NCBI GenBank assembly: GCA_938743325.2
Contig: OW568866.1
Coordinates: 124,001 to 188,000 of the forward strand
Source: Pycnococcus provasolii
Taxonomy: Eukaryota; Chlorophyta; Pseudoscourfieldiophyceae; Pseudoscourfieldiales; Pycnococcaceae
Reading direction: 5' to 3'
Length of the DNA: 64,000 nucleotides
Numbering within the stretch: the first letter of the stretch is position 1; each line of letters begins with the position of its first letter. The notes beneath the pieces are model-generated. The model worked only from the letters and a program-made list of their open reading frames with translations. It ran no database searches and had not been told where the DNA came from. The translations under genes and the position numbers were made by a program. Shown here one piece after another: positions 5,887-60,600 of this stretch.

Positions 5887-6349
5887 CACACGACAACGAC
5901 ACGACACGCACGCACGCACACACACACACGCACACAAATAAATAATGTCCTCAAATAAATAAATGACAAGAGGAAAGCCGAAAGGCAAAATCGCGAAAAA
6001 ATCAAAAAAATGAAAAATCAGCGAACGAACCAAACCCCGAAACGAAACCAAACCCCGAAAAAGGGAGGGAAAAAGACAGAGACAGAAGGGGATAGCAGAA
6101 CCAGAAGGGGATACCGGATCGATATGTAGCGGTATCCCAAGAATGCGCCGAGCTCCTCGATGCCACCTCCCTCATTTTATTATCGATGCGTCTGATCCTG
6201 CTCGTCCTTTCTTCAAAAGCGGTGTAATCTTTCGCGTTATCTTCTAAATGCCCCGGGGGCGGACCCTTTAACCCTTTTCCTTCCCTGCCCCGGCGGGAGG
6301 GTCCGGGTCCCCCCTCCCCCCGGCGCGGACTCCGGGATCAAACAAAACC
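5887..6349. promoter_or_regulatory. divergent promoter region MurC / psaD
   Basis: This is the shared 463 bp upstream region of two divergent plastid-related genes. It contains a CA-rich stretch at 5903-5936, a duplicated AAACCCCGAAA-type motif at about 6033-6060, and a duplicated AGAAGGGGATA at about 6084-6112. No coding sequence was found. Joint control of the two genes is possible but not shown. Confidence 0.4.
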
Positions 6350-19495: not shown

Positions 19496-19530
19496 GGTGG
19501 TGGCGGCGATTTAGGAATGGCGGGCTGTTG

Positions 19531-19778
19531 GGTGGGGAGGTTCGGTGGATTTTGCCCTGCAGGGGATCCGTCGCTGGTGGCTTCCCCTGGTCGAGGATTG
19601 GGGAGGGCCGTGTGGGATCCCGCTCCGCTCCCGGTTGTGCCAAAATGCAACAATGGCGCGCACATTCCCCACGCTTGCTTCGCGTAGGGAGGTTCTGGAA
19701 GGCCCTTCAACGTGCGTATTTGCCCAGAGGCGGCGGCGGTCCCCTCGCGCCGCCATCACCGCCTCGGCGCGGCGCCTC
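19531..19778 (-). repeat. dispersed promoter-proximal element, copy 1 (full)
   Basis: A non-coding repeat of about 248 bp that recurs at 21765-21892 and 43185-43422. Read on the minus strand it contains AAGGGCCTTCCAGAACCTCC, a hairpin with an 8 bp stem and 7-nt loop, GCCATTGTTGCATTTTGGCA, a GGGATCCC palindrome, and CAGGGCAAAATCCACCGAAC near its gene-side end. It ends 36 bp before the NAA20 ATG. No terminal repeats, poly-A tail or target-site duplication was clear, so its class (MITE, SINE or other) is open. Confidence 0.8.
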
Positions 19779-21674: not shown

Positions 21675-21764
21675 TTTTATGGGCGGATGATGGCCTGCGC
21701 GCGCGCCGAGGAGGAGGATGCAAAAAAAAGAAACGAATGAAGAGGCCAGTGAAATGGCGGGCGG

Positions 21765-21892
21765 ATGGTTGGGGAGGTTTCGGTGGATTTTGCCCCTGAA
21801 GGGGATCCGTCGCTGGTGTCTTTCCCTGGTCGAGGATTGGGGAGGGCCCTGTGGGATCCCGGTTGTGCCAAAGTGCAACAATGTGTGACAGT
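21765..21892 (-). repeat. dispersed promoter-proximal element, copy 2 (truncated)
   Basis: The gene-side half of the repeat also found at 19531-19778 and 43185-43422. It keeps GCAAAATCCACCGAAACCTC, the BamHI-site pair and the GTTGCACTTTGGCACAACC block, but stops before the hairpin. It lies 91 bp upstream of the VPS36 ATG, in the same orientation to its gene as the other copies. Confidence 0.8.
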
Positions 21893-22555: not shown

Positions 22556-25500
22556 TTACACGTGTTCATTGGCACTACTGTTACTAGTATTAGTATTGGC
22601 GCGGATGCCTGCGCCCATCGACTTGGCGCGCCTTAGTGTAAGCGCGCCCATACGCGCAGGCTGCGAGGCGGGCTGCGCCAAAGTCGCGGCGTCGAGGCGA
22701 GAACGCAACGCAAGGCGACGGAGCATCTCGGTCGTCACGCGCTTGCTCAGACGGTCAATCTCCTCCTGCTGAGTCTTGACAAGCACCTCGAGCTCCTCCG
22801 TGGGACTCTTCTTTCTCATGGCGACCGCGCGCCGACGATCGTGAACCGAAACGTGGCGAGGCACAGCCACGGATTTCAGGCGTTCCAAGATGGCGCAGAT
22901 GGCCGCCTCCCGAAACTCTATCGGTGCAATGAACGGTATGATCTCCGAAGCATCAATTCCACAATCGCATACTTCACCTTCCAACTCCTTGCGACTCACA
23001 CCTTCGTAGCCAGACCGCTCGTCCATTTGGCAAAGAAGAACAATCGGCTTGCGATTCTTTAGGGGTGCACGCACTATCGTACTCATATGCTGCATTACGG
23101 CCCTCGTGGCAAGAACGACGCTCAAATCTGTATTCGCGGAGCAATCAGCCGCCGCAGTCACTGTCACTGTATATGGCTCGGGAACATCGTCGTCTGCATA
23201 GCGCCGCGCGACTGACCGTAGTTCGTCAGCCAGCGCGAGCACCTGAGTTTCATGGTGCGATAGACCGTCGCCTTGCAATCCCTCAGGCGGAACCACCACA
23301 TTGATTCTTGCTCCATACGGAATTGACTGCACAAGGCTTCTCAAGCGAATGTGACTACCATGATCTGCAGAGAGTCCCATCGCATGGAGGATCTTTTGCA
23401 CAGTCACGTTGGACAATACCGCGTCATGGTACAGAGGGATAGATGTAATGTCGAACAAGCTCTTCAATTTTCCAGCGTGCTCGTAATTAGCGTAATTCCC
23501 TTGAGACTTTTGCTCGTCCTTCAGCTCGTTCACAAAGTCGCTGAAACTTGCGGAGCCGCCGTGCAGTGGATCAGTCTCATGCACGAGGATGATGTTCGCA
23601 TCGTATTCAAATGCCGTGGTAAGCTCAAGCTTACAGAACCATCGCTTGAAGTATCCCTTTGTTAAGAGCAGAAGGAAGTGTTTGTGATTTCTGACCCCCT
23701 CTTGCATGGCCTTTGCACTTAGCTCGGTCCGATCCATGTCGTACCAAATGTGCTGCTGAAGCCAACGGCGCTGCTCTTTTAAGAGTCCCACTAACCATCG
23801 GGCTGTCGTTCCACCTCCGCCCTCCTGATAGTGACTGACAAAACAGCCGGGTGACAGAATAGCCTTGCCATTTGCGAACACACCAAATGTGCCCCTGTCC
23901 GCACTGTTATGAAAGAAGCGATGCTCCAATACTTCGTTGATTGAGACTGGACGCTCGATTGGGGATGCCCGTAGCAACCATCGGATGAGATCAGCAAGAT
24001 ATTGTGCGTGCTCTGTACCTTGAAAAGTTGTAGAATCTGATGAGGATGCAGAGTACAGAGTCTCTTCGAGTCTGATATCATTCCAGCTCGCAAGGGCTTC
24101 AAGATCTCCAAGCGTAACATCATCATTATGATCGGTGAGCCACAGAGGCCTGCCAGTGTACAATTCGAAGAGAACAACACCAAGGCTCCACAAGTCGTAA
24201 CTTTGCTGTGCAGTGTAGTCTTGCAATGTGCGTCCGGGTACTTGCCTGGCTATATCGAACAGCACACGTGCCATCTCGGGTGGACAATATCCGCTTGATG
24301 GTGTCTTTTTCCCGAAGGAGGTTTGGATCTGGCAAGAGCAATCGAAGTCAATCAGCTTGTACTTGCCATCGCACCGCATCAGATTCTGAGGCTTGAAGTC
24401 TCCGTGTATGATGCCATTTGAGTGGATGTGCCCGAGCGAATGCGTGAGCTGCGTGACAATCTCACGGATTTTGGTGATATCAGATCCAGCGATATGATCG
24501 TGCGTGAGGGAGTCGCAAAGGCTGAAATCCCCTCGAGGCAAAACCACGCAAAACTTGTACAGAGCTATATGTGCTTCGAGTGATGCTGATGCAGTAGTGC
24601 TATCCACGGTTGTTAATCTATCATTCATGATCCCCGTTTCTTCATCAGCAGGATCCACTTCGACTTCATGAGCTAGCGCCAGTGTCGTTGTTTGTGGAAG
24701 ATGATCGCCTAGTCGAAGACGCATCAGACCTTTCGCAAATGAATTCCTCACGACTGATTCTTCACAGATATCTCCTGATGCATCATATGAAGTCATGATG
24801 TGGATAACATGACGGTGATCGAGATCATCGCGCGACTCGATCTCGCGATGGTATTGCCCTTGATCACGCATAAGCTTCAGTGCGACAGGAATCGGCAGCG
24901 TGCCGCCACTGCCGCTCCTCATTTCTTCATGATGGTCCATCGCAAATATCACAATGCATGTGCGGCTGATATGAGCTGGAGGACCTTCGACAATTTCGTA
25001 TCGTCCAAGGAAGTAGAGAGCCTGCTGCATAGCCACCCGCGATTCTGCGCATGCAACATCCAACACGGTTCGTCCATAAGAATCTTTTAGCAACGTAAGG
25101 TCTGGCTGTGCCTCTACAATCTTGTTCAAGAGCTTTGCGTACAACGGGCAGAGAGAGAGGCAATGCATTACTGTCTCGCCTGTAACATCCGTGCATGACA
25201 GGCACTCGTGCGAAGATTTTGATGCGGCAAGAAGGGCCCCAATCACAGCAGGTGGCGTATTGTTTTGTGAAGCCCAGTGGATCGGCAATCTGCTCATCTT
25301 CCGATCCTTTGAGTCGCATTGATGAAGGAGCAATTTCACCACTTCGAGATCAACATGGTTCTTGCAATTGCAGATAAGTGCCGTCTCACCTAGAGTATTG
25401 CGCACTTCGAGATCGGCGCCCTTGCTGACGAAGAATTCTAAAAACCGAACAAGTCCGTACTTTGCGGCTTGAAAAACGCAATTTTCGCCACTGCCTGCTT

Positions 25501-27523
25501 CCATCATCGCCGTCAAATCCGTGTTCTCCTGTAAGGATGCAAGAATCGCCAGATATGGGGTCAAATCGCCGGCTTCGTGTGCGCTCTTGCAAATCGTCTG
25601 GAGCACCGTAAGGTCAATTCGAGCGCCGCGGTCGGCAAATAATTTGACAATGTGATGTCGACCATTACTACGGCAAGCATGCACCAGTGGCGTTGTGCCC
25701 CAAGTCGAGACATCCTTGTTGACGCCAAAGTCAAGCAGCATCGACAATATTTTTGTAATTTTGATCTCATCCCATCCATCTGGCGTAACGAACGACTTCT
25801 GAATAAGTGCGACGACTAAATTGTAGTCTTTTTGCTGTCCACTGTTGAAAAGATCGATCCAACTGCGATCCTTCTTCTTGACCATCAAATCCTCAACTCT
25901 GCTCATGACAATTGAGTTAAAGTGCGATGGTGTGACGAACGAATCCGAGTCAATATTGCTGATGCTTGTCTCCCTCGTACGGAAATTGGGATGCAGCTCC
26001 TCATTGTCGGATCGTTTGTTTCTAGTTGATGTAGCTGCAGCGTTTTGTTCCGCATCGAGAAGCTTTCGCACCAAATCGCAGTCTTCTCTCATGCAAGCGC
26101 TCCAAATGTCTGCAAATCTCTGGGAGACTTTCAGCGACCGTCCCTCCTCCTCATCTTCCTCGTAATCTCCCGAGTCGTCTGAGACAGATTCCAAGTCAGA
26201 ATCCGAGACAGATTTTCCTCTTAAATGCCCTGCCCAAGCTGCCTCTAGAAGCGTGTCTAGCGCCGTCAATCCATCGTGGTTACGTGCATTTGGATCAATT
26301 CCCTCGACGGTGAGCAGGTATCGAACAACCTTGAAATTATGGCGAGCCATGGCATGATGCAGCACCGTATTCCCGCGGCCGTCTAACAAGTCTGGCGGTG
26401 CTCCGTACTGCTCGACCATCAGGCGCACAAGCTCACATTCGTCACCATCTGAACCAGCGAGCAAATGGAAGCTGCTGACGAGCTCGCCCTCGGAAAGAAT
26501 GACAAAATCGGTATTTCCCGCGTGCACGTCATCGTAGGCGGAGTCGAGGTGCTGCGGATCCATTCCATATTCAAGCAGCATGCGCACCATGTCATGCCGT
26601 TGCTCGCCAGGCTCGCGGAATTCTACCATGTGTCCACTGTCGAGACACCAGCACGCAACCCATAGAGCGAAATGCGCTCGGGGATGCTTAGTGGCGCCGT
26701 GCATGCAGAGCACGCGTCCAACACCTGTCAATCCGAACATCGCAGCCTTCACGAGCGCGCTATTGTTGTGATCGTCCAAGTGCGTAACGTCTGCGCCAGC
26801 GTTGATCAAGAGCTGGGTGCACACAATGCGCTTATGCACAAAGTTTTTCAGCTCTTCGTACGATAAGAGCCCTGTGCGATACGCTCTGTGTTCCTCTTGG
26901 TTTCCAATCACCGTCATAGAGAGCGCCGCAAGGTGCCCATCGCTCTTGCTCGTGGTATTTGGCGAATGGCCGCCGTCGAGCAACTCGCGGAGTTTGTCCA
27001 CATCGGCTGCGTTTGCAGCCTCCACAATTTCGTCATCGTCCTCTTCGTCGTCGTCCTCCTCCTCCTCGCCATCTTCTTCGACGTCGGCGTCCGTGGTGCC
27101 ATCCTCGTCCTCAACGGTTTCCCAGCTGGTAGTGCTGAGAGAGGACGGTGGATGAACACCTCCACCACTTCGATCGAGCCATTCGCCAAGGAGCTTGATG
27201 CACCTGCCGAAGGTGCCGCGCGCTTGACTTCTTTGCAAACCGCCTAGCGCCTTAACGACGCCGGTGTACGCCGAACGCACAACCTCCTGTTCGTCGTCTT
27301 CTAGCTCAGTTAAAAGGTCCTCGAACTCGTTTTCGCCTTCAAGTATGAGCAGCTCGTCGAGTTCTGGAACGGATACAAAGTCATTGCTACTTTCACGAGT
27401 GCCATTGTCCTCGAGTACGAGGTGACCTGACCCTGCGTCTGACGACTTTGCCTCTTCCAACTCGGACGTATCGTCATGATGTTCTGCCGGCTTTTTCTTT
27501 TGTTTCTTTTTTTTCCTGGGCAT
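22556..27523 (-). CDS. ankyrin repeat - protein kinase - TIR domain protein
   Basis: An intronless gene of 1,655 codons starting MPRKKKKQKKKPAEHH, a basic patch that could be a nuclear signal. Acidic stretches cover about residues 57-80 and 137-165. Ankyrin repeats cover roughly 165-440 and 470-830 in two blocks. A kinase-like domain spans about 855-1205, with Lys in VALKLM at 883, catalytic loop HGDFKPQN at 1040-1047, DFD at 1059-1061 in place of DFG, and YDLWSLGVVLFELYTGRPLW. A TIR domain spans about 1225-1375: GCFVSHYQE, IWYDMDRTELSAKAM, LLLTKGYFKRWFCKLEL with Glu1300 at the usual catalytic position, and IILVHETD. A second alpha/beta region (1405-1550) and a C-terminal coiled coil (1575-1610) follow. 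It is likely a cytoplasmic signalling or immune-type receptor. The domain calls are mine; the role is inferred. Confidence 0.85.
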   Translation of the reverse strand: MPRKKKKQKKKPAEHHDDTSELEEAKSSDAGSGHLVLEDNGTRESSNDFVSVPELDELLILEGENEFEDLLTELEDDEQEVVRSAYTGVVKALGGLQRSQARGTFGRCIKLLGEWLDRSGGGVHPPSSLSTTSWETVEDEDGTTDADVEEDGEEEEDDDEEDDDEIVEAANAADVDKLRELLDGGHSPNTTSKSDGHLAALSMTVIGNQEEHRAYRTGLLSYEELKNFVHKRIVCTQLLINAGADVTHLDDHNNSALVKAAMFGLTGVGRVLCMHGATKHPRAHFALWVACWCLDSGHMVEFREPGEQRHDMVRMLLEYGMDPQHLDSAYDDVHAGNTDFVILSEGELVSSFHLLAGSDGDECELVRLMVEQYGAPPDLLDGRGNTVLHHAMARHNFKVVRYLLTVEGIDPNARNHDGLTALDTLLEAAWAGHLRGKSVSDSDLESVSDDSGDYEEDEEEGRSLKVSQRFADIWSACMREDCDLVRKLLDAEQNAAATSTRNKRSDNEELHPNFRTRETSISNIDSDSFVTPSHFNSIVMSRVEDLMVKKKDRSWIDLFNSGQQKDYNLVVALIQKSFVTPDGWDEIKITKILSMLLDFGVNKDVSTWGTTPLVHACRSNGRHHIVKLFADRGARIDLTVLQTICKSAHEAGDLTPYLAILASLQENTDLTAMMEAGSGENCVFQAAKYGLVRFLEFFVSKGADLEVRNTLGETALICNCKNHVDLEVVKLLLHQCDSKDRKMSRLPIHWASQNNTPPAVIGALLAASKSSHECLSCTDVTGETVMHCLSLCPLYAKLLNKIVEAQPDLTLLKDSYGRTVLDVACAESRVAMQQALYFLGRYEIVEGPPAHISRTCIVIFAMDHHEEMRSGSGGTLPIPVALKLMRDQGQYHREIESRDDLDHRHVIHIMTSYDASGDICEESVVRNSFAKGLMRLRLGDHLPQTTTLALAHEVEVDPADEETGIMNDRLTTVDSTTASASLEAHIALYKFCVVLPRGDFSLCDSLTHDHIAGSDITKIREIVTQLTHSLGHIHSNGIIHGDFKPQNLMRCDGKYKLIDFDCSCQIQTSFGKKTPSSGYCPPEMARVLFDIARQVPGRTLQDYTAQQSYDLWSLGVVLFELYTGRPLWLTDHNDDVTLGDLEALASWNDIRLEETLYSASSSDSTTFQGTEHAQYLADLIRWLLRASPIERPVSINEVLEHRFFHNSADRGTFGVFANGKAILSPGCFVSHYQEGGGGTTARWLVGLLKEQRRWLQQHIWYDMDRTELSAKAMQEGVRNHKHFLLLLTKGYFKRWFCKLELTTAFEYDANIILVHETDPLHGGSASFSDFVNELKDEQKSQGNYANYEHAGKLKSLFDITSIPLYHDAVLSNVTVQKILHAMGLSADHGSHIRLRSLVQSIPYGARINVVVPPEGLQGDGLSHHETQVLALADELRSVARRYADDDVPEPYTVTVTAAADCSANTDLSVVLATRAVMQHMSTIVRAPLKNRKPIVLLCQMDERSGYEGVSRKELEGEVCDCGIDASEIIPFIAPIEFREAAICAILERLKSVAVPRHVSVHDRRRAVAMRKKSPTEELEVLVKTQQEEIDRLSKRVTTEMLRRLALRSRLDAATLAQPASQPARMGALTLRRAKSMGAGIRANTNTSNSSANEHV

Positions 27524-29137: not shown

Positions 29138-29167
29138 CTAACCCTAACCCTAACCCTAACCCTAACC
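29138..29167. promoter_or_regulatory. interstitial telomere-like tract upstream of TPR gene
   Basis: Exactly five CTAACC units, 88 bp upstream of the TPR gene's ATG. Similar tracts precede four other genes in this window. Confidence 0.75.
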
Positions 29168-29590
29168 GACATCACACGCCACCCCTCTGAATCCCCGAAC
29201 GATTTTCTCCCCGACCAAAGAGAGAGCGAGTTTTCGCCCGAGGGTTTACGCCTCTCGTGATGGCGGCGCGCGCAAGGCCCTGCCCTTCATCCGACCCAGG
29301 TTGTCGATGGAAGGTGAACGGCTTCTCAAAAGTAACACAAACTGCCTCTACGACAAAACCAACACCCAACCCCCTTCACAGTCGGTCCTTTTGGCGATGT
29401 CGCAGGCTTACAAGTAGGCGTGTGGATGCGTAGACAACATGATGAACTCCAGTAGCCGGATTTGGGTTGTCTCCACATACAAACGCGACAACAGCTCGTT
29501 GTGGGGATACACTAAGATATACTTAAGGTGCAGCTGGTTGAGCAAACTCACTCGCAGGCGCGAATCAGGCGGCGAGCAGCACCGAGGAGG
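29168..29590. other. intergenic region, no clear gene
   Basis: This stretch lies between the TPR promoter and the left inverted arm. Short frames exist on both strands but none has a recognisable domain or splice structure. I see nothing supportable here. Confidence 0.35.
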
Positions 29591-29645
29591 AGGCTTTTCC
29601 ACGGAGGAGGAGACGATGGCGCACCTGAAGAGAAAGATAAACTAA
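29591..29645 (+). pseudogene. copied 3' end of MYND gene
   Basis: Encodes FSTEEETMAHLKRKIN and a stop codon. It differs from the real MYND C-terminus by Ile for Lys at the penultimate residue. It lies at the outer edge of the left arm and has no gene in front of it. Confidence 0.85.
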
Positions 29646-30378
29646 ACAACAACACGTGAAGCAAGATCGACAAGCATCAAGATGAGGCACTCGCGCATTG
29701 CAGACTGGATAGCAATAGGTAGGTGGAAGACAGCCCTACGCGAGTTGCACTGCACCTACGCGCGTGCGCCCGCAGCCGCGCGCGCGACGTCGGCACGTCG
29801 CTGCCGCGTGCTTCCGACGGACGGACCTGACGGGCGAACCGATCGTAGCCGAGTATCTGGCCCACGACGATGAGTTGGTGTTGCTAAAGGAGGAGGAAGC
29901 TTGCATGAGTACCACCTTGCATTCCGCGCCTCCTTCCCGGCGCCGGCAGGGCCCCCCAAATCGCATCGACTTTGTCGCACATGTACCCCGTCTATACTTT
30001 CGTCAATTTTTTGGCATTTGGCATTTTTATCATCTCCTGCCTTATATGGCTCGGATTAATTTGTAGTAACTGTTTTATAATCATTGAAATGATTATTGGG
30101 AATCACTGATTCCTATAACATATTTCATATAATTTCTTACGAGGTAGCCAGTTGCTTGCAACAGACTACAGCTTGTCCTCGGCCATCCACATCTGCCATC
30201 GACGAGCGACTCTTTTTCCTCCCATCCCCCATTCATCTCTCCTGCAACCCATCCATCCCATGTCACATCAAATCCAAACCCTAACACATCAAATGATGTT
30301 CGTTCGGTCTTCGTCCTTAATATATAATACAACGTTTGATGTATGTAACGTATCTTACAAGTGATGATTTTCATTCAT

Positions 30379-30484
30379 AATAATTTACCACCAACGCTCG
30401 CACTTGATGCGATCCCTCATCAGTCCACAGCTCACCAAATGTGCGATGACGTCATGGTGGGCCGACTTGCTGCATTCCTGGCGA
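30379..30484 (-). pseudogene. copied 3' end of OXNAD1-like gene, left arm
   Basis: Contains the end of the reductase coding sequence (IKCERWW and stop) plus a short piece from about 130 bp further upstream, with the intervening part missing. It is a mirror of 34282-34387 in the right arm. Confidence 0.8.
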
Positions 30485-30491
30485 AAGTGTG

Positions 30492-32579
30492 CTAGTCGCT
30501 CTTGCGCTCGACATGCGCCGACGACGATGCCATACTCGCGTCCAGGACAACCACCAAACGACGAAGCAGGGCGTACCGTTTATCGTCATCCGTCGAGCTG
30601 CTGCCATTCTCCTCCTCGCTCGCCTCCTTCTCCTCGAGAGCGCGTGTCCTCTCACGCAGCGCGGTAGAAACGGACGAACGCAACGTCACAAGCTCAGAAT
30701 CCAGCGCGGTGTCGCCGACGAGCGCGTTACGTCCGGCGCTGTCCGCACAACGAAGCAATGCCACGCGAAGCTCGAGCGCCTCCGCGACGGCACGATGCGG
30801 CGCGGTGGCCGAAGCAGCATCCGTGGGCATGGGACCTGCAAGCGACGCAGATGCATCACGCACGCACGCGAGAAGCGCGGACGTGCCGCCGTCGGGTAGG
30901 AGCAGCGGCGCGGCAGCGCAGCTGCCGCGCAAGGCACAGCGGCGCGCGTCTCTGAAAGCCTCTGCAAATCCGGGAACGGCGCGTGCCGCCACGCCGCAAG
31001 GCGCGTGAGCTCCAGCAGCGAGCGTGACGCAGCGCCAGAGACTTTCCGCGGCTGGTGCCCCGAGTCCACCCGCGCATGCATGGCATGCATCACGCACCGC
31101 GCCCGTCGACATCTGCCGACGAGCCGCGGACGCCGTGTCCGGTGCATGGGAGAGGTGGAAGGCAAGCACCTTGCCAATGTCGTCGGAAAGGTCCCAGTGT
31201 TGCCCCATCGCGTCGTCGAGCTGCTCCTGCTCCGACGGCTGCGAGTCAGCGGCTGCGGCGGCGGCTGCGGCACTTTTCCTCGCGCTCTTCTTCGCCGCGG
31301 TGGCTCGCGCGTCAAGGCTCGATCGCAGCGCTGCCGCGGCATCTGCGAGCGCAGCGTCGACACATCTCCACAGCGCGCCTGCCGCCTCGCTATTCCCACG
31401 CCGACCTGTCGGTGAAGCACCAATACCCACGCTCCCAACGCACCTTGCGAGTGCCTCAAGGGCACCCAGGCGACGGCGCGTGGGTGCATCCTGAACACCA
31501 CCCTCCCTTTCACGAGAACGCAGCAATGCGACGAGACGTGGCAGATTCGACTCAACGTCACGAGCAGCTGACGATAACGACGCGCCGCCGTGAAGCGTGG
31601 CGTGCACACGATCGCACAGCGCGCGAGCGGCGGTGTCAGCCCAGGCTACGGCGAGTGCGTCACCGCACAGCCTCTCCTCGTCCGCGGCGGCTGGATCCAT
31701 CGCATCCGCGTCCAACGTGGAAGGTACGTCGAGCCATGCACCCGCGCCTGGTGCGGAGAGCTGATCGACGAGCGATATCGCATGCTCGCTCAGGCCAAGC
31801 GTTTCCCACACTCCCGATGCGCTTACTGCGGTATACGACGTGCGTGCCGCAAGCGAGCGCGCCGTCGCAAGAGCACGAAGCGGCATGACATCGTCATCAT
31901 CGTCGTCGTCGTCGTCGTCGTCGTCGTCTTGATAGTGGAAGGCGGCGTGGGCGCCGCCAGGTCCCGCATGTTTTGGAGGATTTCCGCCGAGAGCTCTTCT
32001 GCGAGCATACGTCGCCCGCGCGAGGCGCAGCACTGTGGCAGGTATGGCAAAGAGGTGCAGTGCGGCAAGGTCGTGCCTTGCTCGCCTAGCCGTTCCTTGG
32101 CTCGTGCTTGCACCGTCGCTCGATTCCACACGCGCGGCGGCGTTTGTTGCGTCTATCGATTGGTTTGCATCGCGCTCCGCGGCGTCGACGACGGTGCGCA
32201 CCGCCTTTGCACACATCGGCCAGTTTTCGACGAGCCGATCGACGCCGTCTCGTTTCGTGTCCGCGACCGCGCTGGCGAGTGCATCCGCAAGTGCGCGCAC
32301 TTCGTCGTGTTCGAGCAGCGGCAGGTCGAATCTCAAGCGCGCGTGGCACCTGCGCGCAAGCTGCATACGTGACGCGCGCGAGTCTAAAGGTGATGACGAT
32401 GCTGCACTTGTGTCGGGTGATGCGTCTGATGATGCCGCCTGCCGCCTCGCCTCCGACGCCTCGATTTCCCGGATGAGCGCGGATGAGAACGCGTCGTGCT
32501 CGCGGGACGCCTGCGTCTGCGTGTGGTTGCGGTGCGCGCGCGCTAACGAAAGCGCCTCCTCGAGCGTGAGGGACGTCAT
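30492..32579 (-). CDS. 695-residue alpha-helical protein of unknown function
   Basis: A single exon starting MTSLTLEEALSLARAHRNHT. It is almost entirely helical, rich in Ala, Arg, Leu, Asp and Ser, without membrane segments. This suggests an alpha-solenoid or tethering-complex subunit, but I cannot assign a family. An Asp run of 13 lies near residue 225 (a GTC microsatellite at 31896-31929), and an Ala run lies near 440. The C-terminal 109 or so codons lie inside the left inverted arm, so an identical copy of the gene's end exists at 33947-34274. It is divergent from the OXNAD1-like gene across 180 bp. Both genes lie in the segment that the inverted arms could flip. Confidence 0.75.
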   Translation of the reverse strand: MTSLTLEEALSLARAHRNHTQTQASREHDAFSSALIREIEASEARRQAASSDASPDTSAASSSPLDSRASRMQLARRCHARLRFDLPLLEHDEVRALADALASAVADTKRDGVDRLVENWPMCAKAVRTVVDAAERDANQSIDATNAAARVESSDGASTSQGTARRARHDLAALHLFAIPATVLRLARATYARRRALGGNPPKHAGPGGAHAAFHYQDDDDDDDDDDDDDVMPLRALATARSLAARTSYTAVSASGVWETLGLSEHAISLVDQLSAPGAGAWLDVPSTLDADAMDPAAADEERLCGDALAVAWADTAARALCDRVHATLHGGASLSSAARDVESNLPRLVALLRSREREGGVQDAPTRRRLGALEALARCVGSVGIGASPTGRRGNSEAAGALWRCVDAALADAAAALRSSLDARATAAKKSARKSAAAAAAAADSQPSEQEQLDDAMGQHWDLSDDIGKVLAFHLSHAPDTASAARRQMSTGAVRDACHACAGGLGAPAAESLWRCVTLAAGAHAPCGVAARAVPGFAEAFRDARRCALRGSCAAAPLLLPDGGTSALLACVRDASASLAGPMPTDAASATAPHRAVAEALELRVALLRCADSAGRNALVGDTALDSELVTLRSSVSTALRERTRALEEKEASEEENGSSSTDDDKRYALLRRLVVVLDASMASSSAHVERKSD

Positions 32580-32759
32580 ACCTTATGGAGCACGCGAGGA
32601 GGGGAGTCCTCGGCGGCGGGTTGGTGCCGGAGGGCGAAGGCTGCGGGGAGGGGAGGGAAAAACAAGGGCGCAGATTCGGGGAGCCGAGGAGGAGGAGGTC
32701 CACATATTTATTCCGCGATCACAACTGGGCGCAACAATCCAATACATAGCGCCCTCCTC
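32580..32759. promoter_or_regulatory. short divergent promoter inside the invertible segment
   Basis: 180 bp separate the ATG of the 695-residue gene from the ATG of the OXNAD1-like gene, so the two must share or abut promoters. The sequence is G-rich with several GGGGAG-type runs. No telomere-like tract is present. Confidence 0.55.
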
Positions 32760-33941
32760 ATGGCGCGTCTCCCCAGCGCGCTGCGTCGACTGCTCGCAGC
32801 CGTGCCTGTGCCAACGTACCTGTGCGGAAAGCAGTCTATGACAAGCACCGTCAACTCCTCGACGCGACGATCCCTGTCGTCGTCGGCAAGTGCTATACCG
32901 TCATCTAAGGTGTTCCCCGCGAATTTCGTGGGAACCAACCACCCATCACCTGCGACTGCTCCAAAAGCGTCCTCAGGTCAGCCTCAGGTGCGCCAGTGCG
33001 GCACGTCGTCCGTGCACCCAGTGGCGGCGCCACCAGTGGCAGATCACAGTGTGCAGACGTCTTCATCGCCGGAGACGCAAGCGCCGTCGACTCGCGTACC
33101 CGCGCTTGGGTCGGTGGTGGCGATAGCAGGGGAGACGCCGACGTGCGTGCGCGTTACAATCAGAGTACACGGTGGAAACGACGGTGCGTCGACGAAGTTT
33201 GCATTCGAGGCGGGACAGTGGGTCGACATGTGGCCTGCAGACAGCACCGAGGCGGGCGTGGGATCCGCGGTGGGCGGCTACTCCATAGCTAGCCACCCGC
33301 GTGACCTTGCCGCTGACGGGACGATCGAACTCGTCGTGAAGCGAAGCAGACATCCTGTCGCTACGTGGCTGCACGACTCCGCGCGGGTTGGCGACAACGT
33401 GTACGTGTGCGCGGGAGGCGGCGACGCACTTCGCGTGGACGCGGCTGAGCTGGCGCACCACGCCGTGCTCGTCGCAGGTGGCATTGGCATCACGCCTCTC
33501 ATGAGCATCCTGCGCGAGGTGGCACACGTCGCGCAGACTCGCGTCGTCGACAACCACGGTTCCATGGCGCCCATTCGCACGTCCGTCTTGTACAGCACGA
33601 AGTCGGAGGACGAGTTTGCTCTGCTGCCGGCGATGCGTGCCGCGGCGGAGGCTGCCTCCCCTCGCCTGGAGGTGGACTTCAACCTTCGCGTGACGGCGCC
33701 TCTAGGTGCAGTATCGCCAGGAATGCAAGTCGGCCGCATCGAGCGTAGCCACATCGCCGACGTCGTTTCGAAGCTCGCCGCCGCACCTCGCGCGGCACTG
33801 ATGATGAGCGGCGCTAAAGATGATGTGGCCATGCCAACCGCTTTTGTGTGCGGCCCACCGGCGATGGCGGATGACGTCATCGCACATTTGGTGAGCTGTG
33901 GGCTGATGAGCGATCGCATCAAGTGCGAGCGTTGGTGGTAA
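32760..33941 (+). CDS. OXNAD1: OXNAD1-like NAD(P)H/FAD oxidoreductase
   Basis: A ferredoxin-reductase-fold flavoprotein of 393 residues. The N-terminal 110 or so residues are Ser/Ala/Pro-rich with few acids, as in a mitochondrial or plastid presequence. The FAD-binding barrel follows, with FEAGQWVDMW and GGYSIASHPRDL. The NAD(P)-binding domain has VLVAGGIGITPLMSILREV, TSVLYSTKSEDEF and FVCGPPAMADD. The end, IKCERWW, matches the Trp-Trp terminus of animal OXNAD1 (CFEKWW). The physiological substrate of OXNAD1 is not known. The stop codon falls 5 bp before the inner edge of the right inverted arm. Two degenerate copies of its 3' end sit in the arms. Confidence 0.88.
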   Translation: MARLPSALRRLLAAVPVPTYLCGKQSMTSTVNSSTRRSLSSSASAIPSSKVFPANFVGTNHPSPATAPKASSGQPQVRQCGTSSVHPVAAPPVADHSVQTSSSPETQAPSTRVPALGSVVAIAGETPTCVRVTIRVHGGNDGASTKFAFEAGQWVDMWPADSTEAGVGSAVGGYSIASHPRDLAADGTIELVVKRSRHPVATWLHDSARVGDNVYVCAGGGDALRVDAAELAHHAVLVAGGIGITPLMSILREVAHVAQTRVVDNHGSMAPIRTSVLYSTKSEDEFALLPAMRAAAEAASPRLEVDFNLRVTAPLGAVSPGMQVGRIERSHIADVVSKLAAAPRAALMMSGAKDDVAMPTAFVCGPPAMADDVIAHLVSCGLMSDRIKCERWW

Positions 33942-33946
33942 ATTAT

Positions 33947-34274
33947 TGCTGCTTCGGCCACCGCGCCGCATCGTGCCGTCGCGGAGGCGCTCGAGCTTCG
34001 CGTGGCATTGCTTCGTTGTGCGGACAGCGCCGGACGTAACGCGCTCGTCGGCGACACCGCGCTGGATTCTGAGCTTGTGACGTTGCGTTCGTCCGTTTCT
34101 ACCGCGCTGCGTGAGAGGACACGCGCTCTCGAGGAGAAGGAGGCGAGCGAGGAGGAGAATGGCAGCAGCTCGACGGATGACGATAAACGGTACGCCCTGC
34201 TTCGTCGTTTGGTGGTTGTCCTGGACGCGAGTATGGCATCGTCGTCGGCGCATGTCGAGCGCAAGAGCGACTAG
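33947..34274 (+). pseudogene. copied 3' end of the 695-residue gene
   Basis: Carries about 108 codons in plus sense, in frame and intact up to SSAHVERKSD and stop. It has no upstream part in the present arrangement. If the spacer inverts, this copy becomes the functional C-terminus and the left copy becomes the orphan. Confidence 0.88.
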
Positions 34275-34281
34275 CACACTT

Positions 34282-34387
34282 TCGCCAGGAATGCAGCAAG
34301 TCGGCCCACCATGACGTCATCGCACATTTGGTGAGCTGTGGACTGATGAGGGATCGCATCAAGTGCGAGCGTTGGTGGTAAATTATT
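34282..34387 (+). pseudogene. copied 3' end of OXNAD1-like gene, right arm
   Basis: It begins with a block matching about 33715-33735, then jumps to a copy of 33868-33947, omitting about 130 bp. I count two substitutions in the roughly 76 bp of the second block. The missing segment has no GT-AG borders, so it is not a spliced copy. Confidence 0.8.
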
Positions 34388-35120
34388 ATGAATGAAAATC
34401 ATCACTTGTAAGATACGTTACATACATCAAACGTTGTATTATATATTAAGGACGAAGACCGAACGAACATCATTTGATGTGTTAGGGTTTGGATTTGATG
34501 TGACATGGGATGGATGGGTTGCAGGAGAGATGAATGGGGGATGGGAGGAAAAAGAGTCGCTCGTCGATGGCAGATGTGGATGGCCGAGGACAAGCTGTAG
34601 TCTGTTGCAAGCAACTGGCTACCTCGTAAGAAATTATATGAAATATGTTATAGGAATCAGTGATTCCCAATAATCATTTCAATGATTATAAAACAGTTAC
34701 TACAAATTAATCCGAGCCATATAAGGCAGGAGATGATAAAAATGCCAAATGCCAAAAAATTGACGAAAGTATAGACGGGGTACATGTGCGACAAAGTCGA
34801 TGCGATTTGGGGGGCCCTGCCGGCGCCGGGAAGGAGGCGCGGAATGCAAGGTGGTACTCATGCAAGCTTCCTCCTCCTTTAGCAACACCAACTCATCGTC
34901 GTGGGCCAGATACTCGGCTACGATCGGTTCGCCCGTCAGGTCCGTCCGTCGGAAGCACGCGGCAGCGACGTGCCGACGTCGCGCGCGCGGCTGCGGGCGC
35001 ACGCGCGTAGGTGCAGTGCAACTCGCGTAGGGCTGTCTTCCACCTACCTATTGCTATCCAGTCTGCAATGCGCGAGTGCCTCATCTTGATGCTTGTCGAT
35101 CTTGCTTCACGTGTTGTTGT
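34388..35120. other. non-coding interior of right inverted arm
   Basis: About 730 bp with short frames on both strands but no recognisable domain. It includes an AT-rich half (34388-34770) with a near-palindrome around AATCATTTCAATGATTA at 34672-34688 and a GC-rich half. It is duplicated as the mirror 29646-30378. Confidence 0.5.
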
Positions 35121-36599
35121 TTAGTTTTTCTTTCTCTTCAGGTGCGCCATCGTCTCCTCCTCCGTGGAAAAGCCTGTGCCTAGCGCCCAATTCGGCGCAT
35201 AAGGGGACAATCGCCAGTACTCAGCCTCGCGTTCCGCATTCGTACGAAGCTCTTTCTCAAGCGCGGCGCGCATTTTCGATGGAGCTTCGAGAAGCATAGA
35301 CTGCGTGATAACCTTCCATGCCTCCGCATCTTCCGTCCCGGGTATAGGCATCGACGCACCCTTCTCGCCTTTTGTTTGAAATCTCTTCTGAACCCGACTC
35401 AATGCCGCCCGGGATGGCTGACGTCGTTCGCGCACGGCGATGCCGCCTGCACCACTTGCTTCGGCTTTCCCCTTTTGCTTGCGGGTGGCGCATTCCGCCT
35501 TGTGAGCGGCTTTCCAATGCGCCTTCTGGCACTCTTTGCTGCAGTACACGATGGCCGGGGCGCGGCACGCACACGAGAGATGCTTCTTGTCTGGTGTCTC
35601 TTGCACGCTGCAGTGTACGCATAGACGTGCGATCCCCTCCGCCGCCATCTCTGGGATACTAATGCCATACTTCTTGAATGCGCGTTTCATCGCCGCGGGT
35701 AGAGGTTGCTTCTTGCGCCTCTGGCCGTAGATTTCCATCAAATCTCCGCTCGTCAATCCGCACCCTAGCCCACCCTTCACACCCACACGCTGTGATGAGA
35801 GCAGCTCCCAAATGAACGACAGGACGTTGTCCCGCTCTGACGCGGGAAGCGGCGACGCCACTTGATCTAGCCGATGCTTCACGTAGGCAAATGCGGTGGG
35901 GTACCAATTCCCCTTGCCGTCGCACACTCCCTCACCTTCGGCGCCGATGAAGTAGCACAGTGCCGGGCGCGCAGAAAGATCCTCCAAGGGATGTTCCGCA
36001 CATAATAGCTCCTGCGCGCGCTTCCAGAGGAAGCCCGTGTCGAACTCGAGGGCGGGATCGCCGTGCGCATCCACCTTTGGGGAGATCCAGAAGGTTGTAC
36101 CAGCCTCGAAATTGCGGAAGCAGCAGTCGCTCGCCCGGAAGCGACTGTCGCCCGTAACGACGGAGTCGAACGCATCGGGCATTTCGGCGTGGAGCGCGGC
36201 CCACCGGGTCGGCGCAACCTTGTATGACAAACTCAATATTAAGCCCGCCGAGTCCTCAGGGTTAGGAAGCACGTCGCTCGCCTGGGATATGAGAATCGCA
36301 AGCAACCACGACCAGTGGTTTGCGTCCCACCCTGCCATTTCTCGCACCCATGGCAAGGCGGATAGCCTCACAATTCTTTTCCTCCCATCATCCGGGGCAA
36401 ATCGCGCGGCTAGGCCCAAGAGGAGGTTCGAGGATGGCGTCAGGTTTGGCTCGTTTGGTTCGAGCGCGGATAGCGTGAGCGACACGGTCACGGGGGGGCC
36501 GTTGTACCCGCGCAGGTACCGCACGTCCTCCGGCGGCGCGGCTTCGATCTGCCGCGCCGCCGTCACCAGGCACTTGAGCACCGCGCGGGGCGGCGGCAT
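35121..36599 (-). CDS. MYND-type zinc finger protein
   Basis: The ATG at 36599 (MPPPRAVLKCLVTAAR) gives 492 residues. Longer in-frame starts upstream would translate a telomere-like promoter tract as LGLGLL and are rejected. The first 320 residues are a globular region I cannot assign. A MYND finger lies at about 345-385: CVHC, CACRAPAIVYCSKECQKA, HWKAAHKAEC. A basic, helical tail ends AHLKRKKN. MYND fingers bind proline-rich peptides and are expanded in some algae. The last 17 or so codons lie inside the right inverted arm and are duplicated at 29591-29645. The function beyond protein binding is unknown. Confidence 0.8.
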   Translation of the reverse strand: MPPPRAVLKCLVTAARQIEAAPPEDVRYLRGYNGPPVTVSLTLSALEPNEPNLTPSSNLLLGLAARFAPDDGRKRIVRLSALPWVREMAGWDANHWSWLLAILISQASDVLPNPEDSAGLILSLSYKVAPTRWAALHAEMPDAFDSVVTGDSRFRASDCCFRNFEAGTTFWISPKVDAHGDPALEFDTGFLWKRAQELLCAEHPLEDLSARPALCYFIGAEGEGVCDGKGNWYPTAFAYVKHRLDQVASPLPASERDNVLSFIWELLSSQRVGVKGGLGCGLTSGDLMEIYGQRRKKQPLPAAMKRAFKKYGISIPEMAAEGIARLCVHCSVQETPDKKHLSCACRAPAIVYCSKECQKAHWKAAHKAECATRKQKGKAEASGAGGIAVRERRQPSRAALSRVQKRFQTKGEKGASMPIPGTEDAEAWKVITQSMLLEAPSKMRAALEKELRTNAEREAEYWRLSPYAPNWALGTGFSTEEETMAHLKRKKN

Positions 36600-36647
36600 G
36601 GCGGTCACAGGTGGAAGGGAGCTCCGCACGGGGGGTACGAAGAGAAG

Positions 36648-36664
36648 TAACCCTAACCCTAACC
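36648..36664. promoter_or_regulatory. telomere-like tract upstream of MYND gene
   Basis: TAACCCTAACCCTAACC, 49 bp upstream of the chosen ATG at 36599. Confidence 0.7.
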
Positions 36665-37139
36665 TGGCATCCATCCTGCTCTCTCTCTCTCTCTGCCCAG
36701 TCTCTTCCCAGGGTGGTGCCGTGTCCCGACAAACAGACAAAGGGCGGGCGGGAGGAAGATGAAGTCGGAAGCGTTGGGTGGTTGATCCCGACCTTGCCAC
36801 GTGACCTTGCCCGCCTTTTCTCCTCGCCTTGTACGTAAAGTATCCATCCGACCATCCTCGCCTCATCAGGCTGTCAGGCGCATCATCTCGTCGCGCTCCC
36901 TCGCGTTGATGGACGCCTTGCCTTGGCCCTTGGGACTTGCAAGGGAGTCATCATTTGGCGGGACCTTTTGGCGGGTCCCACCTCCTTCTGTCCTTCCTCT
37001 CTTTCTTTCCTTGCTCCCCTCCCCAAATGAATAGCGCGGGTGGTTCGACGAAACCTTCCTCCTCAACCTTCCCCCTGAACCATTCCTCTCTCTGCTCGTC
37101 ATCTTCCCAACCCTTTCTTTTTTTTGAGAGCTTGTCAAG
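36665..37139. promoter_or_regulatory. divergent promoter region MYND / membrane protein
   Basis: About 475 bp, pyrimidine-rich on the plus strand near 36990-37130 (CTTTCTTTCC-type runs and a T run right before the 37140 ATG). A (CT)n run lies at about 36677-36693. No gene was seen. Confidence 0.4.
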
Positions 37140-39799: not shown

Positions 39800-40150
39800 G
39801 CACCAAGTCAACGAAGCCTGGCTCAACTTCTCCATCCTCCCATCTCACAATCTCATTCTTCTCCTCCTTTTTGAGTTGCTCAACCACCGACATTGATTTT
39901 TTTTTCCCCAAAAGTAACACCACATTCTTTCGCTCCATCTAACTTAACTCTGGCTGCAATAAATACGGGTGAACGAAGTTACCAACCAACCCCTTTCCTA
40001 AATACAACTCCGTAACCCTACCCGGTAACCCTAACCCTAACTCTTCGGTGTGTGTCCCATTGGAGGCACGCACGTACGTCACCGGCGATTGATTCTCCGC
40101 CAGTCAGCTTTCCTTTCCTTCCCTCCCATCCCTCCCCCTTCCGGAACTCC
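39800..40150. promoter_or_regulatory. 5' region of GatB with telomere-like tract
   Basis: A 351 bp spacer between two genes in tandem. A variant TAACCCTACCC at 40013 is followed by TAACCCTAACCCTAAC at 40026-40041, 110 bp upstream of the GatB ATG. A pyrimidine-rich leader follows. Confidence 0.6.
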
Positions 40151-43184: not shown

Positions 43185-43422
43185 CGAGGCGCCGGCGCCG
43201 CGCCGAGGCGGTGCCGCCGCCTCTGGGCAAATATACACGGTGAAGGGCCTTCCAGAACCTCCCTACGCTTGCTTCGCGTAGGGAATGTGCGCGCCATTGT
43301 TGCATTTTGGCACGACCGGGAGCCGGAGCGGGATCCCACAGGGCCCTTTCCCAATCCTCGACCAGGGAAAGACACCAGCGACGGATCCCCTGCAGGGCAA
43401 AATCCACCGAACCTCCCCAACC
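43185..43422 (+). repeat. dispersed promoter-proximal element, copy 3 (full)
   Basis: About 238 bp, closely similar to 19531-19778 read on the opposite strand. The hairpin at about 43261-43283 keeps the same stem (CCCTACGC/GCGTAGGG), but its 7-nt loop is the reverse complement of the loop in copy 1. It ends 83 bp before the CBM25-SPP ATG and starts 57 bp from a small ORF on the other strand. GGGATCCC and GGATCCCCTGCAGGGC are present. Confidence 0.82.
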
Positions 43423-43504
43423 ATCTTCCCCAACCATCGTTGGCTCACGATCTTCTGCACTTGATCCACAATCTATATTGCCGTCTTTTCGTCCGCCATA
43501 CGCC

Positions 43505-54989: not shown

Positions 54990-55016
54990 TAACCCTAGTC
55001 CTAACCCTAACCCTAA
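54990..55016. promoter_or_regulatory. telomere-like tract upstream of AANAT-like gene
   Basis: TAACCCTAGTCCTAACCCTA and two further bases-worth of repeat, with one unit degenerate; another ACCCTAAT lies at about 55031. It is 49 bp from the ATG at 54941 and about 110 bp from the 3' end of the neighbouring ATG11-like gene. Confidence 0.65.
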
Positions 55017-56991: not shown

Positions 56992-57696
56992 CGTGCAAAC
57001 TCCCGGGATACAGAGGTATACCAAATAATAATGTTGTATGTACAGTATGACTATAAAAAAGGCATATACATACACAGCATATAATCTAAAGAAAAGAAGA
57101 AAAGAATAATCCAGACAGCCAGAGCCAGACACACACACACGGCGTGACGCGGAAGTGGTTTTTCAGGAAGATGAATGGAGCCACGTGTTGGGACCCTGTG
57201 GTGGGACGGGACGCGTATTCCTAGGCGGGGGGAGGGGAGGGTTGAAAACGAAACGGGAAACCACAAAGCAAAAGCCACAAAAGCCTGCTTTCCCTCCCAC
57301 AGTGCCACAGTGTCCTTCGAAGTTCCCCTCGGATATTCGACGGACTCAAGACGCTCCTTCGCAGCAGACAGAGTTCGCCTGATATTCCGGAGCAGGAAGC
57401 CTGAAGCTCGGGCCTCGAGGGGAAGAAGGTCCAATGCAGGCCGGGCTGCAGCATTCGGGGTCGGGTTAGGGTTAGGGTTAGGGTTAGGAAGTAGGTTCCT
57501 GCCGCCTGAGCCATCATCTTCAGGAGTTCCGTTCAAAGGTTCAATTCACAGTTTTACACTTACCTGTACTTAAAACATTTTAAAACATTTAGATTTAATC
57601 AGACCAGAATGTATTACAACGATGCTGGCTGCTTAAAGCAATCATGGCGTGTGTCCTCCTCCTCCTCCATGACGATGATGATGATGTTGATAAATG
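56992..57696. promoter_or_regulatory. 705 bp upstream region with telomere-like tract
   Basis: The region lies between the ATG11-like start and the 3' end of the Cache sensor gene. A four-unit GGTTAG tract sits at 57464-57488, 473 bp from the ATG. G-rich runs (GGGGGGAGGGGAGGG) lie at about 57226-57241. A 161-codon frame on the minus strand across the tract shows no domain and reads the repeat as Asn-Pro, so I reject it as a gene. Confidence 0.5.
57464..57488. promoter_or_regulatory. telomere-like tract, GGTTAG x4
   Basis: Four perfect units on the plus strand, far upstream of the ATG11-like gene. It is the most distant of the five tracts. Confidence 0.7.
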
Positions 57697-60600
57697 CTAA
57701 ACCCATCCTTGCTCCACATTCACCAACGGTAACCCTGTGTAATCTTCCTCATCTTTATTTTTCATGGAGCTGATCGTGGGACCAAATCCATTGTTAGGAG
57801 CCACTTTCACATTTCGCATCCCTACAGCTTTTGGCTCCTCCTCCTCTCGACCCCAAGAAGACTTTGCAAGAGTCTCCACCCTTTTAAGTAAACTTTGGCT
57901 GCGTCGCAATGGTGACGCCAATGATGTGACGCGTAAATCCCTGTTCCCGTCACCGTTTCCACTCTGCGGAGCAATCACTCGCGCGGGAATATTGACTTCT
58001 TTCACCCAGTCATTGAAACGCTTCGACACACTTCTACTTCTACCGGCCCGCCTGTCCAAAGTAGAAGTATCATTTCGACAAGCATCAACCACAGAGACAA
58101 GCCAGAGAAAGGAAGAGCGATCTCCGTCACTGCTACGAATGATCCATTCCAGCAGAGGAGCTAGATCGAAAGGCGAAATCATGTCCGAAAATCGATTCGA
58201 ATAATTATTATTCAATTCGTGATTCTCTTCAACAAAGGTCATCATTCGAGCAACTGCAGCACAGTCCTCATGTGAACTCTTCTCCGGATCGCTGAAGTAT
58301 TCAAGCAAACACGGCAGCGCCCCAATAAGAGCGCGATAAATCTCAGCTTTAGAGTTGTGAGCGTATTCACTCACCTCAGCGGAATCCCCGACGACAGTAT
58401 CCAGGATGGACTCAAGACGAAGTATCTCAACAGCGTCTGATTTCGATACATCGCGTGAAAACAAAGCTTCCAAGGCATACGAGTCCAATGTGGTGAGCAT
58501 TTCAGCGAACAGAGACTCTGTCATGAGTTTTACGTTATCTTCGGCGTTGAATTGTTCAACCTCGAAATTGACATGTGTGGCTGCAAATGACTGTTTGAAA
58601 TCTGATATATCGCCAATGATCTTTGAGAACGCCTCAACACCATCACTCACGAATGTCTTAGATAATCCCAATGCAAGCAGATCCTTTGCTACACCTGCAT
58701 CGTCGTTTTCCTCTCCTGTCCGCGAGTCTACAACCTCGTCGTTTGCTCGCATCAATTCGTGGCCAATGTGAACGAGAAACTCAGACTATATGTTTTTCAA
58801 AATATGGAAAAATTATATTAAGTTCATGTGGTTTGGATTGTTGTATTTGGTTAGCATTCATTGTCACCGTGAAAAATATGAAAAGAGCGCACTGAAGCAG
58901 AAAACGAATTAAACACGCGCAAAAAAAAAAAAACAAAAAAACACTCAAAAACAAACAAATTAGGAGAAGAAAAATCAGTACCTCAACAAAACCGACTTCA
59001 ATGTCTTTATGTACTGTTCCGCCTCCGATTAGGTCTGTCAGAGCATACGCCTGATCATCAGTCAGCATTTGCCTTCCCCCCTTTCGCTCACCATACAATA
59101 TGGGAAAATTTTTCATGAACTCAGTGGGACTCACTACGCCGTCGCACTTTGAATCGAGCACCCGAAATGCAGCGCGTGATGCGCCAAGAACACGGCGAAC
59201 GCGATCTTTTGCCATGTCCATCGTTTCTGCAGCTCTTGGTACAATCTCTTCTAGAAGAATTTTGGTAAATCGCTCAGAAGTTTTACGTACAGCGTTCTTG
59301 CGTGATGTCTCATAGCTGTGCTCCAAGTATAACAGACTTATAATTGCAATTGTAACCGCACAAAAGACAATGGTAATTGTGATCTCAAAGATTAATTTCA
59401 TGACTGCGCTTGTTGAGAACGTCTCTACGAGCCCTGCAACAATGTAAAACATGTTAAGCATACATGCAGCAAACTCAAGTTTATCTAGATAGGAGATTGA
59501 ATATGGTCGTGAATACGCTTGCATGGCCAAGAACAAGCCACAAAGTATTAATCCCGCTGCAGCTTGAAGCATTGGGTCGTCTGCCATGAATTTGAGCACT
59601 GCAACAAGAAGTACGCGCCTTAAGATCACAATCAGCTCCCAAAAGTAAAACTCGGCATCATAGCGCGTATACAAAAACCCGTACCTCACAAGGTATGAGG
59701 GGGAAGAGAGTTTGTCCATGGCTTTTCCATAAAAGAGCACCCAAGCAAAAAACGCAGGCATGCCAATCACGTAAACTGCAATGGCAAAGCTGCCAAGAAT
59801 CTGAAGGCCGGCATAGCTGCTGCTATTCACACCAATCCATGGCGCCTCTTCGATAAATTCCACACCATCAGGACGTGGAGCGGTGGCGAAGATGTCAAAC
59901 GCTCTTTCCGTAAGGGCCAGATAAAGAATATGGTGGAAGGCTATCAATTCATTGATTAATATGTCGTCGCTGTCGTCCATTTCCTTTTGAGTTGTTAAAA
60001 GTCCTCTGGGAAATTTTTGAATGCGACCCGTCCTTATGAGGTATAAGGAGATGTATTTTGCAAGATGAAAGAAAGCAAGTGCTGTCACCTTAACAAACGG
60101 CAATACCATCAAAAGCAGAAAGCCGTCTTTAAAATCCCATGGCATATGACATTGCCACATGACGACTATATCAGGATCGAAGTTGACAATTTGCGAGAGA
60201 ACTTGCCAAAAGCTGGCCATTGTAGCGGGCCACTCGAGACTAAACTTGCCGATGATATCACTGATTTGCATAAATTCCAGACTCACATTCAAAGCTTCGT
60301 AGGGAACCTCGTTGAGCCCAAACCAAACTGCAAAAATAGCTGAGGTCATCAAAGCCGTATATATCCACTGCATAAAACCATCAGCACATTTAAAGCACGC
60401 ACCCTCGCCTGAGGGCCCACCGTCCCATCCAGTGGCGTACGCTTTGAAGTACCCTTTTCCGCACAGCGTACAAAGTGTGCCATGTCGCTCGTCTGCACAT
60501 GTGAAGTTTTCGCCACCTTTGCATGCAAACTCGCCAAGCTCGCACTCAAGAAACTCACTTGGATAGCCACGCTGCCCCCAGAATCCAGGCTGTGGATATG

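Follow-up and report, generated by a model that had tools for sequence, protein, structure and literature searches.

The analysed window, i.e. the whole stretch of 64,000 nt, contains two inverted arms which enclose a divergent pair of protein-coding ORFs. Each arm carries a gene for the U2 spliceosomal snRNA, and the outer edge of each is formed by the 3' end of a MYND-finger ORF. The arms and the genes in contact with them are given below.

29591-30819, no strand: left of the two inverted arms (1,229 bp), matching the right one at 1228 of 1229 positions
33947-35175, no strand: right of the two inverted arms (1,229 bp), continuous with the full MYND ORF at the outer end
30492-32579, minus strand: ORF of 695 aa, unmatched in Pfam and NCBIfam, with the final 109 codons including the stop (30492-30818) inside the left arm
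33948-34274, plus strand: copy of the last 109 codons of the 695-aa ORF including the stop, in the right arm immediately after the OXNAD1-like gene
32760-33941, plus strand: oxidoreductase ORF of 393 aa, termed OXNAD1-like in the preliminary description, with an NAD-binding domain (PF00175, E = 6.9e-8)
32580-32759, no strand: intergenic 180 bp between both start codons, inside the invertible segment and without a second copy in the window
35121-36866, minus strand: MYND-finger ORF with a longest frame of 581 aa, the right arm containing its final 18 codons including the stop (35121-35174)
29592-29645, plus strand: orphan copy of the last 18 MYND codons at the outer end of the left arm, containing the sole arm difference (K to I)
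30029-30213, plus strand: U2 snRNA gene of the left arm (RF00004, 73.8 bits, E = 1.1e-12, model positions 1-192 of 192)
34553-34737, minus strand: U2 snRNA gene of the right arm, identical to the left copy

The arms are separated by a spacer of 3,127 nt (30820-33946). A base-by-base comparison gave one difference in 1,229 positions (identity 99.92%), namely at 29638, where the left arm has T and the reverse complement of the right arm has A. At this length, the match needs no formal calculation of chance. Similarity drops abruptly at both edges of the arms: the outer flanks (1,000 nt) match each other over 11 nt at best, and the inner flanks show nothing beyond a gapped 32-nt match of chance quality. 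When the left arm was compared to the window using blastn, only itself, the other arm and one piece of 77 nt were found. Read inwards from its outer edge, each arm starts with the 3'-terminal 18 codons of the MYND ORF, followed by U2, a TGTAA motif and a decayed OXNAD1-like 3' end, and closes with the 3'-terminal 109 codons of the 695-aa ORF. The full 695-aa gene is continuous with the left arm and the full MYND gene with the right arm; thus, parts of both neighbours were copied.

The 695-aa ORF has G+C contents of 0.72/0.59/0.67 at the three codon positions, similar to the values for the HECT and GatB ORFs in the same window. For the 393-aa oxidoreductase, six PDB matches were obtained, five of them flavohemoproteins and one a cytochrome P450 reductase. 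The 180 bp between the two start codons presumably form a divergent promoter region. The geometry reported in the preliminary description is confirmed by the base comparison and the ORF coordinates, i.e. two arms of 1,229 bp with one substitution, a divergent gene pair in the 3,127 bp between them, the C-terminal 109 codons of the 695-aa gene in the left arm with their copy at the inner edge of the right arm, and an OXNAD1-like stop codon ending at 33941, 5 bp short of that arm. Three components of the arms had been overlooked: the MYND 3' end, the U2 gene and the fossil OXNAD1 3' end.

A search of the whole window with Rfam at the gathering threshold (score 46 for RF00004), to which the above E value refers, gave two matches only, both of them U2 and one in each arm. 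The folding energy of the U2 sequence has a z-score of -3.71, and none of 200 shuffled sequences was as stable. In U2, GUAGUA between stem-loops I and IIa serves branch-point recognition; the corresponding stretch UGUAGUA aligns with the consensus UGUAGUA. Judged by eye from the RF00004 alignment, an Sm-like site, AAUUUCUUA, is located near the expected place and has a non-textbook form when set beside the standard Sm-binding site of U2. The sequence is divergent, and four non-standard base pairs are marked in the alignment. Upstream of the U2 genes the two copies have 438 bp of arm in common, of which the nearest 390 bp are identical; the single arm difference sits 391 bp upstream. A second copy of the U2 gene is the likely present effect of the structure. 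For annotation, the locus contributes a U2 gene, divergent and present in duplicate, from an alga-like genome.

Relatives of the locus were searched in further collections, which, as far as viral contigs, plasmids and prokaryote genome contigs are concerned, are not meant to contain eukaryotes. In the viral contigs neither the OXNAD1-like nor the MYND protein had a relative, and the plasmids gave no near match to the left arm. A U2 pattern had no match in the prokaryote genome contigs. In the viral contigs, a U2 pattern of 19 bases matched a single locus (L001), which was without an RNA family match at the gathering threshold and was regarded as a chance match. A search with RF00004 over L001 and 14 control genomes gave no match anywhere, controls included, and hence is uninformative.

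The 77-nt piece found by blastn belongs to the 3' end of the living OXNAD1-like gene, a longer portion of which is present in both arms in decayed form:

33871-33947, plus strand: living OXNAD1-like 3' end, identical to 34311-34387 at 75 of 77 positions
34282-34387, plus strand: decayed OXNAD1 fragment of the right arm, a copy of 33714-33947
30379-30484, minus strand: decayed OXNAD1 fragment of the left arm, the same as the right-arm fragment
34407-34411, plus strand: TGTAA, a probable poly(A) signal, with its left-arm counterpart at 30355-30359 on the minus strand

The fossil begins 7 nt behind the stop codon of the 695-aa ORF. It differs from OXNAD1 33714-33947 by two deletions of 120 nt and 11 nt, an insertion of 3 nt and two substitutions. 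The 120-nt deletion spans the region between two CGGCC copies (33731 and 33851), and the 11-nt deletion corresponds to 33860-33870. In the upstream portion, 34282-34306 matches 33714-33735 with the 3-nt insertion, and none of 1000 shuffles scored equally high. At its other end the match between the living gene and the fossil stops exactly at 33947, i.e. where the arm begins, and both sides have a single T in common at this base. Since the fossil is identical between the arms and unlike the living gene, its decay preceded the last homogenisation of the arms. The common fossil and the single difference in 1,229 positions are signs that the arms may have exchanged sequence in the past.

UGUAA is a poly(A) signal of green algae. 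The TGTAA of the arms is located 25 nt behind the stop codon of the fossil and 132 nt behind that of the 695-aa ORF. From the present OXNAD1 stop it is 465 nt away, with no other TGTAA on that strand in between. For comparison, 14 ORFs of the window were chosen, five of which have a TGTAA at most 40 nt behind the stop codon. Shuffling the same 40-nt stretches, which retains their A+T-richness, gave a mean of 0.77, and 3 of 5000 shuffled sets reached five; with random window positions the mean was 0.16 and none of 5000 sets reached five. TGTGT is equally frequent in these stretches, and the poly(A) argument is taken as supportive, not as proof. As the TGTAA follows the fossil stop at 25 nt, just as it follows other ORFs, OXNAD1 probably once ended at the position of the fossil, which would have placed its 3' end beside U2.

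The gene content of the window is eukaryotic, including a HECT ligase, Vps36, DHX29-like and SPB4-like helicases and a HIRA-like WD40 protein. The SPB4-like gene appears to be split by an intron, its DEAD domain being distributed over two ORFs with a donor of the type CAG|GTACGA (identified by eye) between them. A sucrose-phosphatase-type protein is also encoded. On the minus strand at 4099-6051, an ORF resembles MurC, the UDP-N-acetylmuramate-alanine ligase (TIGR01082, 258 bits, below the curated cut-off of 335.1), and possibly is a plastid peptidoglycan gene. MurC and sucrose phosphatase are pointers to plastid-bearing lineages; together with the TGTAA signal, they suggest a green alga. Using ARAGORN with the bacterial code, no tRNA was found in the window.

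The preliminary description had proposed that recombination between the arms inverts the gene pair, leaves both proteins intact and changes what lies downstream of them. Reversal of 30820-33946 in silico bore out the second point, as the 695-aa, the 393-aa and the outside MYND proteins were each present once and identical. The third is largely wrong: about 1.2 kb beyond each gene is the identical arm. That interpretation, which also missed the U2 loci, is thus supported in part. Arms of 1.2 kb are long enough for homologous recombination to invert a segment of 3.1 kb, and such a flip is plausible. It would be near neutral and almost invisible, because the arm following each gene is the same in either orientation; 3' ends and the first downstream sequence remain unchanged, hence little that is switch-like is left for selection. 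It is unlikely that the gene pair serves as a switch. With duplicated U2 snRNA loci as arms, a simpler origin is suggested instead.

We assign a probability of about 0.7 to the reading that the locus is an inverted segmental duplication of a U2 snRNA locus which encloses a divergent gene pair and originated in two steps, in a eukaryotic, probably green-algal nuclear genome. In the first step, a block consisting of the OXNAD1 3' end, the poly(A) signal, U2 and the MYND 3' end would have been duplicated in inverted orientation to a place 7 bp behind the stop codon of the 695-aa gene; a staggered-break inversion or a templated insertion would account for this copy. Its OXNAD1 portion would have been functionless and would have decayed. 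In the second step, a break just behind the OXNAD1 stop codon would have been repaired using the other arm as template. Copying may have traversed first the U2 region, then the decayed piece, and have entered the 695-aa gene before being terminated by end-joining with one shared base; both arms would thereby have been extended by the C-terminus of the 695-aa ORF and left almost identical. A match ending exactly at 33947 is what is expected if the arm starts at the repair join. The single-copy ancestral state is inferred by parsimony from one sequence. The near-identity of the arms could reflect the plain youth of the second step, without any ongoing conversion, and flip-neutrality is best regarded as a by-product of arm growth.

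Other two-event orders are possible, chiefly two successive inversions of the same pair, each with a staggered-break duplication. An old inversion would have left the OXNAD1 3' end by U2; the 1,229-bp arms would stem from a recent inversion in the opposite sense. A single-copy ancestor would have had the 695-aa gene, one arm and the MYND gene contiguous, corresponding to the pair in flipped orientation; the fossil beside U2 suggests that, at an even earlier stage, OXNAD1 occupied that place. Inverted duplications at the ends of inversions are a described footprint of staggered breaks (PMC7584159). However, the second break would have to coincide exactly with the end of the match between OXNAD1 and the fossil, and the left flank 29139-29590 contains no remnant of the arm or of OXNAD1, with only telomere-like repeats matching elsewhere in the window. 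Taken together, this order of events is unlikely. A DNA transposon with terminal inverted repeats was disfavoured: no direct repeat of 2-11 nt abutting the two outer arm edges was found that would represent a target-site duplication, and the arms enclose the oxidoreductase and the ORF without a Pfam or NCBIfam match, with no transposase among them. Long identical inverted arms are known to cause misassembly, for which reason an assembly artefact was considered as well; it is very improbable. Each side of the arms has two different neighbours, giving four distinct sharp junctions, and the living OXNAD1 end differs from the fossil by substitutions and indels, unlike a false duplication. Since all four junctions must exist, a misassembly could only have swapped partners, i.e. 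the orientation of the middle segment.

Active toggling, in which both orientations persist in the population through recombination between the arms and arm identity is preserved by conversion, is compatible with the two-step origin, and the odds of the two overlap. Arm identity of 99.92% extends to the useless MYND and OXNAD1 pieces, the proteins survive the in-silico flip, and among human inversions at inverted repeats, 11 of the 16 analysable ones show signs of recurrence (PMC3961182). A recent copying event explains the arm identity equally well, however, and a flip would be without visible effect for selection. We keep toggling as a tentative, possible reading. Somewhat more doubtful is its stronger form, according to which the pair toggles freely in the living population and conversion-driven growth of the arms made each flip seamless. 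If true, the repeats would have grown over a gene 3' end with its poly(A) signal, whereby a once-damaging inversion became invisible to selection, and snRNA duplications may create flip-neutral islands in compact genomes. A regulated DNA switch with a dedicated recombinase is hardly credible, even though the layout is invertible and the presumed promoter region lies inside: the arms measure 1.2 kb and are composed of gene ends and U2, and the downstream sequence is the same in both orientations. Among the Pfam matches listed for 21 ORFs of the window (of 191 with at least 100 aa; one table holding the best 25 of 28 families), no recombinase, integrase or transposase was present, a result that concerns these 21 ORFs. 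As no site-specific recombinase was among these matches, a recombinase-driven phase-variable switch was rejected.

Several known systems resemble the locus in part. The palindromes of the human Y chromosome are far larger than 1.2 kb. Palindromes such as P6 are similar to this locus in having near-identical inverted arms; theirs are more than 99.9% alike via gene conversion, and inversions are rare (PMC3723533). Unlike in those palindromes, conversion is here deduced from one sequence and the arms measure 1.2 kb. In PMC3961182, the human inversion HsInv0389 is described to turn FLNA and EMD, changing only the orientation of the genes inside; in this and other human inversions, inverted repeats likewise surround a gene-bearing segment, and recurrence is described. 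Set against those examples, the present arms are 1.2 kb long, contain U2 and the 3' ends of neighbouring genes, and are known from one orientation. In PMC7584159, inverted duplications at the ends of inversions are explained by staggered breaks or by repair alone. An inverted duplication at the ends of the inverted segment is common to those cases and the present locus, which differs from them by two nested generations of duplication and by a pre-duplication state that is inferred. Human RNU2 also has more than one U2 gene at one locus (PMC3795722); RNU2, however, is a tandem repeat, whereas here one inverted U2 pair has protein genes between its members. Among the open-licence literature matches listed, no title or abstract beginning reported an inverted U2 pair around genes, and passages on nucleomorph U2 (PMC6461891) contained nothing bearing on such an arrangement.

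The arrangement is instructive but of an ordinary kind among genome rearrangements, and probably not a switch. Its value lies in documenting, within a small and legible region, how an inverted repeat may arise and then grow by repair, with the fossil inside the arms ordering the events. A flip-neutral layout which seems designed can thus emerge as a by-product of the duplication of an snRNA locus.

Telomere-like CTAACC runs are present in the window at 29138-29167, 36648-36664, 40027-40036, 55003-55012 and 57463-57488. At these five places, AACCCTAACC has 11 exact matches, with 0.03 expected. Two of the runs are located within about 25 bp upstream of ORF starts (29125 on the minus strand and 40052 on the plus strand), one about 325 bp upstream of an ORF start (57138, minus strand) and two inside mechanically called ORFs. 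Runs of the CTAACC type are reminiscent of the telo-box promoter elements of plants. A dispersed repeat family has copies at 19516-19737, 21753-21883 and 43213-43425, which are about 130-210 bp long and 85-91% alike, two on one strand and one inverted. Finally, two long ORFs on the minus strand have composite domain contents. An ORF of 1,655 aa (22556-27523) combines ankyrin repeats and a protein kinase with a weak TIR-like match below the cut-off, and an ORF of 1,585 aa (58781-63538) combines Cache sensor domains with a TRP-channel-like region, which to our knowledge is an unusual combination.
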